Shown here: positions 3,907-16,751 of the stretch, piece by piece
Position numbering within the stretch: the stretch's first letter is position 1
Layout of the letters: every line of letters begins with the position of its first letter
Virus record (IMG/VR): IMGVR_UViG_3300042731_003538
Span: 1-25,681 of that record
DNA from: a virus
Reading direction: 5' to 3' (one strand)
DNA: 25,681 nucleotides
The notes under the pieces: generated by a model
The model's database searches: none
The model's input: the letters and a program-made list of their open reading frames with translations, nothing else
Told to the model about the DNA's origin: nothing
Program-made: the position numbers and the translations under genes

Positions 3907-4734
3907 ATGAGTAACTATAGTTCAAGCTACAATATTAACCAAGCAGGCGACATTTACGCCATTGATACAAAAACAAATCGCAGTGAATTAAGCAAGTACA
4001 CAAGTTCACGTGCTACAACTATTAATGCTCCTGTAAATTACAGAAAGCTGATGCTTTTTCGTGGTTACGATAATGAATTCTTCTTTTTTGTAAAATCACA
4101 AAACGGTAAAGTTTTTGATCTACGTGGCATGAGAATTACAGCAAGTATTATCAATCGTCATAATATGAATAAAGTTCTTAGTGAAGATTGTCAGGTAATG
4201 GACTACGAAACAGGATTAATCAAGTTGGTAGTTCGCTCTAACAAAATTAGTACTCTTGAAAACGGTGATGTTGATGTTGTATTAAGTTATACAGATCAAA
4301 ATGGCTTAACAAAACCATTGTTTAGTGACTTAAATATGCGTCCAGCATTTACAGCTGAGTGTACTGACAAAGCAGGTTACATTCCACTAAACACACAGGT
4401 ATTTGAAAACTTCCTGGAAAACAACGGAATTTTTTATACTGGTGCAATGCAAGGACCTGCGTATTACGAAAAACCAAATGGACTTATTACTATTGGTGTA
4501 TATGCTACAAACTTTACAGGTGACTTTTTTATGCAAGGTACAACTAGTCCACAGCCAGCAGACGATGACTGGTTTAATGTAGAACTTGGTGTACAATATT
4601 ACTACCATAACTTTATTGGGTTTACTGGTATTGAGCCTTTTAGTTTCCAGAGTAATCTAAAGCACCTACGTGGTAAGTATATTCCTTCAGCAAATAACAC
4701 AGGAACAGTTGACAAAATCGTAGTTCGTGTGTAA
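3907..4734 (+). CDS. Probable virion structural protein (tail/baseplate type)
   Basis: 275 residues starting after TATAGGAG. The protein is beta-rich, polar and without signal peptide or membrane segment. Residues ~45-150 (FRGYDNEFFFFVKSQNGKVF to GDVDVVLSYTDQNG) resemble the immunoglobulin-like N-terminal domain of phage baseplate/upper-fibre proteins. The C-terminal third contains TNFTGDFFMQGT and DWFNVELG and ends in a short beta hairpin-like VDKIVVRV. A late promoter directly upstream supports a virion role. The exact structural position is not recognisable. Confidence 0.7.
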   Translation: MSNYSSSYNINQAGDIYAIDTKTNRSELSKYTSSRATTINAPVNYRKLMLFRGYDNEFFFFVKSQNGKVFDLRGMRITASIINRHNMNKVLSEDCQVMDYETGLIKLVVRSNKISTLENGDVDVVLSYTDQNGLTKPLFSDLNMRPAFTAECTDKAGYIPLNTQVFENFLENNGIFYTGAMQGPAYYEKPNGLITIGVYATNFTGDFFMQGTTSPQPADDDWFNVELGVQYYYHNFIGFTGIEPFSFQSNLKHLRGKYIPSANNTGTVDKIVVRV

Positions 4735-4737
4735 TAT
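4709..4737 (+). promoter_or_regulatory. Sigma70-like promoter of the primase gene, predicted leaderless start
   Basis: TTGACA at 4709-4714, a 17-nt spacer and TAATAT at 4732-4737. Six nucleotides then separate the -10 box from the primase ATG at 4744, so +1 is expected at the A of the ATG. No Shine-Dalgarno sequence is present before this ATG. The -35 box lies inside the end of the upstream coding sequence, so a chance match is possible. Confidence 0.6.
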
Positions 4738-4743
4738 ATATAC

Positions 4744-5754
4744 ATGGCTTTGATTATTGACTACGTACGAACTCTGGTTCCAGTAAATTGGCGCAGTACG
4801 CCCAGTGGGTGGACACACGGAAATTGTCCTATGTGTGTAGTTAATGGTGAAAGCCGTCCTGATACAAAAGGACGAGGCGGTTTTAATTTCCAAGACGAAA
4901 AGTTTCAATACAATTGTTTTAACTGTGGATACACAACAGGTTGGAGCCCAGGTAAAAAACTTAGCTTTCGTTTACGCAAACTTCTTGTACAATTTGGTGC
5001 TGATGAAAGTGATGTTCAACGACTACAACTTGAACTGATGCGTGAAGATGAAATGGCCGCTATATTATACAAGCAAACACAACGTAATAAGCCGGTTGTG
5101 ATTGACTGGCCAACAATGAACTTGCCGGAAGGAGCAAAGCCATTGTGTGATTATACACACCCTGATGGTAAGTTCATTGAATTGGCTAATTACTTACACG
5201 AACGTGGTTTTGATATACAAGATCCAAGATTTATGTACACTACAGAAAAAATGCCTGCACGTATGCACAATAGATTTATTATTCCGTTTACATACAAAGG
5301 CAATACTGTAGGCTATACTGCTCGTTGGATTGGAAATCCTCCTGCTGATATGCCCAAGTACTATAATAAACAACCTCCCAAAAACTTTTTGTATGGATTA
5401 GACAGACAGCAAGATAAAAAAACAGTTATTTTAACTGAAGGTATATTGGACGCTATTGTAACTGATGGTATTGCTATTGGCAGTAACAATATCAATGACG
5501 ACCAAGCAAATATTGTTGACAGTTTGAATGCAAATGTTATACTGTTACCAGATGCAGACAGTGCAGGTTTACGTGCAGTTAATACAGCTATTGAACGTGG
5601 ATGGAGTGTGAGCTTTCCAGAATGGGAAGATTGCAAAGACGCAGCAGATGCACAGATTAAATATGGCAGACTGTTTACCGTCAACAGTATATTGGAAAGT
5701 GCTATTACTGGAGAAACAAAAATACGTGTAATGGCAAAAAGGTATTGTAAATGA
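4744..5754 (+). CDS. 61: DNA primase (T4 gp61-like, zinc finger plus TOPRIM)
   Basis: 336 residues. The enzyme synthesises RNA primers for the lagging strand in complex with the replicative helicase. An N-terminal zinc ribbon is formed by C28-P-M-C31 and C58-F-N-C61. The TOPRIM core has E232-G-I-L-D236 and the metal-binding LLPD270-A-D272-SAG. A basic RNA-polymerase linker region, RFIIPFTYKGNTVGYTARW, lies at 177-195 and is typical of DnaG/gp61-type primases. Length agrees with T4 gp61 (342 residues). It precedes the helicase gene, with a methyltransferase and an SGNH gene inserted between them, and overlaps the next gene by 4 nt. Translation is probably leaderless given the promoter placement. 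Confidence 0.93.
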   Translation: MALIIDYVRTLVPVNWRSTPSGWTHGNCPMCVVNGESRPDTKGRGGFNFQDEKFQYNCFNCGYTTGWSPGKKLSFRLRKLLVQFGADESDVQRLQLELMREDEMAAILYKQTQRNKPVVIDWPTMNLPEGAKPLCDYTHPDGKFIELANYLHERGFDIQDPRFMYTTEKMPARMHNRFIIPFTYKGNTVGYTARWIGNPPADMPKYYNKQPPKNFLYGLDRQQDKKTVILTEGILDAIVTDGIAIGSNNINDDQANIVDSLNANVILLPDADSAGLRAVNTAIERGWSVSFPEWEDCKDAADAQIKYGRLFTVNSILESAITGETKIRVMAKRYCK

Positions 5755-16045: not shown

Positions 16046-16073
16046 TTGACATTCTTGGATAATATTATATACT
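16046..16073 (+). promoter_or_regulatory. Sigma70-like promoter of the exonuclease gene, predicted leaderless start
   Basis: TTGACA at 16046-16051, a 16-nt spacer and TATACT at 16068-16073, lying in the 60-nt gap before the gene. Six nucleotides separate the -10 box from the ATG at 16080, so the predicted +1 coincides with the A of the ATG, as at the primase gene. There is no Shine-Dalgarno sequence before the ATG. Confidence 0.72.
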
Positions 16074-16079
16074 TTACAT

Positions 16080-16751
16080 ATGACAAATGTAACTTCCCCT
16101 TTTCCATATCAGGAATTAAAACGCAAAAGTATTGGCGGAAAACGTCTATACGAAAATCCCTGGGGCGATCCTGTTCCCAGTGTAACTACTATCCTTGACA
16201 AAACTAAACCTGCTGAAAAGCGGGCAGCTCTTGCGAACTGGAAAAAACGTGTAGGAGAAAAAGAAGCAGCACGTATTACCCGTGAAGCAGCTGACACTGG
16301 CACATACATGCATGCTATACTAGAGCATTGGGTGCTTAATCAAGTTTACGAAGGACAAACAAGTCAGCAAAGTAAACTCATGGCTGAAACAGTCATTAAA
16401 AACATTGAGCCAGATTTAGATGAAGTATGGGGTAGTGAAGTTAATTTATGTATGCCACAGCTTTATGCTGGTACTACTGACTTGGTTGGTGTTTGGAAAG
16501 GCAAGCCAACTATCATGGACTTTAAACAAACCAACAAGCCTAAAAAGCGTGAATGGATTGACGACTACTTTATGCAAGGTGCAGCTTATGCACTAGCACA
16601 TAATGAACTATATGAAACCAAAATTGAAAACATTGCTATCTTTATGTGCAGTAGAGATTGTCAGTGGCAGTTATTTGAAGTAGAAGCTGAAGAATTTACT
16701 GACTGGGAAACACGTTGGGCCTTGCGAGTAGGCGAATTTTACGGCGTATAA
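16080..16751 (+). CDS. RecB/Cas4-type PD-(D/E)XK exonuclease
   Basis: 223 residues. Visible nuclease motifs are the GTYMHAILE helix (H78), E120 in GSEVNL, TD134-LVGVWKG, the D147-F-K149 catalytic strand (IMDFKQ), and Q166-G-A-A-Y170, the QxxxY motif of the RecB/lambda-type subgroup. Proteins like this in cyanophages and other T4-like phages are annotated as exonucleases, with a role in DNA recombination or host DNA degradation. No iron-sulfur cysteines of Cas4 are present, so it is not a Cas4. It has its own promoter and sits between late structural genes, which suggests early expression. Confidence 0.88.
   Translation: MTNVTSPFPYQELKRKSIGGKRLYENPWGDPVPSVTTILDKTKPAEKRAALANWKKRVGEKEAARITREAADTGTYMHAILEHWVLNQVYEGQTSQQSKLMAETVIKNIEPDLDEVWGSEVNLCMPQLYAGTTDLVGVWKGKPTIMDFKQTNKPKKREWIDDYFMQGAAYALAHNELYETKIENIAIFMCSRDCQWQLFEVEAEEFTDWETRWALRVGEFYGV

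Follow-up and report, generated by a model that had tools for sequence, protein, structure and literature searches.

A Sigma70-Type Promoter Fused to the Start Codon Predicts Leaderless mRNAs for a Small Set of Phage Replication and Recombination Genes

Introduction

Does the DNA primase gene of the virus record IMGVR_UViG_3300042731_003538 yield an mRNA that begins at its own start codon, and, if so, is this a chance alignment or a strategy of the phage? A preliminary description of this 25.7-kb record (the whole stretch analyzed, hereafter the window) had read a promoter so close to the primase ATG that the A of the ATG would be the first transcribed base, and had suggested a phage strategy for early genes. 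The clade to which the window belongs consists of marine relatives of the PA5oct/121Q-type jumbo phages. To our knowledge, leaderless genes have been described in phages either as single instances or in Thermus. We propose, with a probability of about 0.8, that a near-consensus sigma70-type promoter fused to the start codon gives a leaderless mRNA, the +1 position being predicted.

Results

The primase locus comprises the following features:

3907..4734, + strand, virion structural gene upstream of the primase, 275 aa; its last codons hold the primase −35
4709..4714, + strand, primase promoter −35, TTGACA, within codons GTT GAC AAA (V-D-K)
4715..4731, + strand, promoter spacer, 17 nt
4732..4737, + strand, promoter −10, TAATAT, overlapping the TAA stop of the upstream gene
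4738..4743, + strand, discriminator, 6 nt; the predicted +1 is the next base, the A of ATG 4744 (standard −10 geometry)
4744..5754, + strand, DNA primase gene, predicted leaderless, 336 aa

The gene starting at 4744 encodes a phage DNA primase (PHROG 47, E 2.6e-30; Toprim); downstream of it lies a gene for a DnaB-like helicase. TTGACA-N17-TAATAT ends at 4737 with the ATG at 4744, exactly as had been described; in the standard geometry, transcription starts seven bases after the −10. TAATAT begins with the TAA stop of the structural gene, and because this stop shares the primase reading frame, ATG 4744 is the first possible standard start, with none further upstream. Elsewhere in the window, the neighboring genes at 590–1435 and 1389–2264 look like paralogues, and the former has no PHROG or Pfam match.

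Judged on the window alone, the primase promoter is not above chance: sigma70-like sites are not in excess there (44 versus 51.4 ± 6.7 in shuffled sequence). A better-scoring site (11/12) at 5516–5543, inside the primase gene, was set aside, as it is not conserved in relatives. Significance comes instead from the relatives, through a fixed geometry at the genes for primase, exonuclease, and a UvsW-like helicase together with a genome-wide excess of promoters at d = 6, where d is the distance from the promoter −10 to the ATG. The hexamers are of sigma70 type (TTGACA and a TATAAT-like box 16–18 nt apart) and not of the T4-like late type, a TATAAATA motif without a −35, since no ATAAATA lies upstream of the primase or the exonuclease gene. 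A late-promoter reading of TAATATATATAC was likewise dropped, as this sequence is not kept in relatives and contains no ATAAATA.

Whether the hexamer pair and the 6-nt gap persist in related phages had been named as the check on the leaderless reading, and they do. Among 30 primase loci from viral contigs, all relatives with at least 59% identity and available upstream DNA retain TTGACA, the 17-nt spacer, TAnnnT, and the 6-nt gap, the combination of spacer 17 and gap 6 recurring in 14/14 distinct upstreams. A distant primase clade (L023–L030, 42–48% identity) keeps the promoter with a −10-to-ATG gap of 9 nt. The fixed hexamer bases carry 1.2–2.5 bits each; the spacer positions are near random, mostly below 0.3 bits.

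The exonuclease gene of the window, cited in the preliminary description for the same 6-nt geometry, does have it, behind a spacer of 16 nt:

16046..16051, + strand, exonuclease promoter −35, TTGACA, followed by a 16-nt spacer
16068..16073, + strand, exonuclease promoter −10, TATACT, 6 nt 5′ of ATG 16080
16080..16751, + strand, PD-(D/E)XK exonuclease gene, predicted leaderless, 223 aa

Comparison of 80 exonuclease loci (45 distinct upstream sequences) places TTGAC 34–36 nt from the ATG in 42/45 distinct upstreams and TAGACA at the same place in the other 3, and loci whose upstream sequence has diverged retain the promoter-ATG module. The UvsW-like helicase (483 aa), which is absent from the window, carries the module in 24 of 39 loci and in all 13 of the distinct upstream sequences counted. 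The absence of a Shine-Dalgarno (SD) sequence, noted beforehand for the primase ATG, is borne out in the window and extends to all three genes (0/72 distinct upstream sequences). One UvsW-like clade (L212–L216, L227) is leadered, with GGAG; around position 1000, these loci carry this SD yet lack an ATG at the homologous start, and translation there seems to begin at ATT or another rare codon.

To place these genes in a genomic context, we scanned eight long relatives and the window (~1.02 Mb) for TTGACW-N16-18-TAnnnT and recorded how far each match lay from the first ATG in a called gene; because genes were called by a simple longest-ORF method, the counts are approximate. The distances are bimodal, with 24 promoters at d = 6 (30 at d = 5–7), few at 8–22, and 70 at 23–40. 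Sixty permuted −35 motifs gave a mean of 0.25 at d = 6, one permutation reaching 10. An SD sequence precedes 0/35 starts at d = 0–8 versus 63/83 at d = 23–60, against baselines of 45% for all ATG genes longer than 100 aa and 5% for internal ATGs. The d = 6 peak exists for ATG only, with none for GTG, TTG, or CTG, which fits an AUG-dependent route. A weight matrix trained on the three core genes (score cut-off 10) returned 30 near-start genes, none with an SD, where 0.6 false positives are expected; ~30 of 1376 called genes have a near-start sigma70-type promoter. Further members of this set are genes for a dNMP kinase, a 5′-deoxyribonucleotidase, and a methyltransferase-like protein, and in G003 a gp46-like SbcC subunit (at 8 nt) and a gp55-like late sigma factor (at 7 nt). 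The marks of leaderless genes are therefore present in sequence: a −10 ending ~6 nt 5′ of the start, no SD, and a preference for AUG. That the arrangement is a phage strategy rather than chance is upheld by the relatives; its attribution to early genes at large is not, since the gene set is small and the majority of consensus promoters have a leader with an SD, leaderlessness marking a subset. The existence of a small, clade-wide class of putatively leaderless replication and recombination genes, as distinct from early genes in general, is well supported.

The scan also brought up features of other kinds. About 21 sigma70-type promoters carry the palindrome AAGAC(G/A)TCTT exactly in the −35/−10 spacer (L120–L128 in G005, e.g., 12494, 13267, 50131, 55050, 55820, and 57433; also in G001, G002, G006, G007, and G008), and many of them have a common leader (TATATGTAAGTTAA...AAAGGAG); the palindrome probably serves a phage repressor as its operator over a leadered regulon. 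In L122 (G005 42695–42731), the spacer of a near-start promoter consists of a perfect hairpin, CACGGGC-TTCG-GCCCGTG, which may be an upstream terminator that has merged with the promoter. Unusually for a phage contig, G007 (L134 12118–13797) encodes a 560-aa CHASE2 and adenylate/guanylate cyclase protein, possibly either host-derived or a contig error.

The predicted +1 could be off by 1–3 nt, and initiation windows do span several bases. A reading in which transcription starts 2–5 nt off the ATG, and the resulting very short leader is used by another SD-independent route such as an unstructured A/U-rich start, would also accommodate the distant primases with their 9-nt gap. The sharp mode at exactly 6, the A in the +1 position, and the paucity of promoters at 8–22 nt nevertheless fit a start at the AUG best, and we consider this alternative unlikely.

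Isolate phages bear on a second alternative. The order structural gene, primase, helicase is common to PA5oct, 121Q, and RaK2 and similar in Vibrio phage 2.275.O. In PA5oct, the primase reads TTGACA-N17-TATAAT-6-GTG and the exonuclease TTGACA-N17-TATAAT-7-ATG; Cassandra and MIJ3 are identical to PA5oct at the primase site, and the primase of Salicola phage SCTP-2 reads TTGACA-N16-TAGCAT-6-ATG. The GTG of PA5oct is the one exception seen to the AUG preference, and under the leaderless reading it would need a leaderless GUG. The annotated primase starts of both phages look wrong: in PA5oct (L174 1429), the GTG directly follows the promoter at 6 nt from the −10, and SCTP-2 gene 154 (L182 1522) is annotated 32 codons too late. 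The primase regions of 121Q, RaK2, and Vibrio phage 2.275.O share the window's order of structural gene, primase, and DnaB helicase but differ in that the TATAAT-like box lies further upstream and the primases are leadered, with SD-like purine runs. The whole-phage distance histogram of 121Q has the leadered mode only, without a near peak, and in an overall rather than gene-by-gene scan, pattern matches in 121Q, RaK2, Atu_ph07, and Phosso look like background. Given these leadered primases and the leadered UvsW clade, leaderlessness is not essential for function.

Nearly all primase relatives have 9 nt between the upstream stop and the ATG, as would suit a real promoter combined with translational coupling, in which ribosomes reinitiating after the upstream TAA would make the primase from longer mRNAs. 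This gap, however, follows from the stop being built into the −10, and the exonuclease, UvsW-like, and PA5oct primase genes keep the geometry with the upstream stop 12–167 nt (or ~35 nt) away. The factor common to all loci is the promoter, not the stop. In PA5oct, the promoter follows the upstream stop and lies outside the upstream ORF with the gap kept, which indicates that promoter and start moved together; coupling is accordingly an improbable account of primase translation.

Finally, the −35 lies within codons of the structural gene, whose C-terminal peptide GT(V/L/I)DK is conserved. The Asp codon inside TTGACA is GAC in 23/23 aligned upstream genes and the Lys codon AAA in 23/23, while other fully conserved Asp columns of the same gene use GAC in 10/23 and 8/23; replacement of Val by Leu or Ile leaves the final TT of the codon intact (NTT). 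Since synonymous sites are frozen only at the −35, and since the geometry recurs in unrelated sequence at the exonuclease and UvsW genes, the upstream protein alone does not explain the conservation, and the view that there is no promoter, TTGACA being kept for Val-Asp-Lys and the spacing set by a fixed gene junction, is largely refuted and highly improbable.

The near-start genes also differ from leadered ones in their surroundings. ATAAATA motifs lie mostly 10–50 nt 5′ of gene starts. A late motif occurs in the upstream run of 13/31 leaderless versus 7/72 leadered genes (Fisher p 3e-4); for the gene that follows, the counts are 10/31 versus 2/72 (p 8e-5). Both p-values are too small, because the counts include orthologues and so overstate independence. 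In the window, the late-type motif is found on the gene before the primase (ATAAATA, 25 nt 5′ of the ATG of the 3907 virion gene) and on gene 16793, the next after the exonuclease. Primase, exonuclease, and dNMP kinase genes sit within blocks of late structural genes. The UvsW-like gene lies outside late clusters, so insulation from late transcription cannot be the sole reason for the arrangement, and compactness or another feature of leaderless mRNAs must also count.

Discussion

We propose that host RNA polymerase would bind TTGACA-N17-TAnnnT and begin transcription at the A of the start codon, and that the resulting leaderless mRNA would then be read by the host's route for 5′-terminal AUGs. 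In most relatives, the module would serve the genes for primase, exonuclease, and the UvsW-like helicase, joined in some by dNMP kinase and others; fusion of the module to the start would also let promoter and preceding gene share sequence at that gene's end. The consensus form of the hexamers points to the sigma70-type enzyme of the host, and hence to pre-late expression. Since the genes lie in late blocks and lack an SD, they may be translated only from their own early 5′-AUG messages, the SD-less early genes staying untranslated on late polycistronic read-through mRNA. We put forward only tentatively that the missing SD silences them there. It is similarly a possibility, and a rather doubtful one, that the leaderless start acts as a temporal filter in which position at the mRNA end, not promoter shut-off, times protein synthesis.

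Several known systems resemble this arrangement in part. The lambda cI message made from pRM is an established leaderless case (Shean and Gottesman 1992, cited in PMC12340547); there, too, the promoter adjoins an AUG without an SD and the mRNA begins at the AUG (a prediction in our case), but cI is one repressor gene whose promoter is activated, whereas here several replication genes have near-consensus −35 and −10 elements across a clade. Thermus phage phiYS40 has leaderless middle and late mRNAs, according to Sevostyanova (2007), whose work PMC3594737 describes. It resembles the phages analyzed here, for which such transcripts are predicted from sequence, in having many leaderless transcripts split by gene class; however, most middle and late genes of phiYS40 are leaderless, in a Thermus host, whereas here the class comprises few replication genes with host-type consensus promoters, and the late motifs stand at leadered distances from their genes. 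In Deinococcus-Thermus, genes with a "−10 region adjacent to ORF" are common and leaderless (PMC12340547), with the −10 likewise adjoining the start codon; that pattern spans a bacterial phylum, whereas the present one belongs to a phage clade and includes a strict TTGACA. In a literature search covering mainly open-access papers, we found no conserved leaderless replication-gene set reported for this phage group, no transcription start map of PA5oct, and no leaderless early phage genes.

The promoter-start geometry also provides a simple criterion by which start codons can be corrected, as in the PA5oct primase and SCTP-2 gene 154. If the leaderless reading is true, these phages would offer a clean natural setting in which to ask what maintains leaderless translation, and would allow a test of whether leaderless starts separate early from late expression in shared operons. 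The arrangement could explain how early genes run from inside late-gene blocks.
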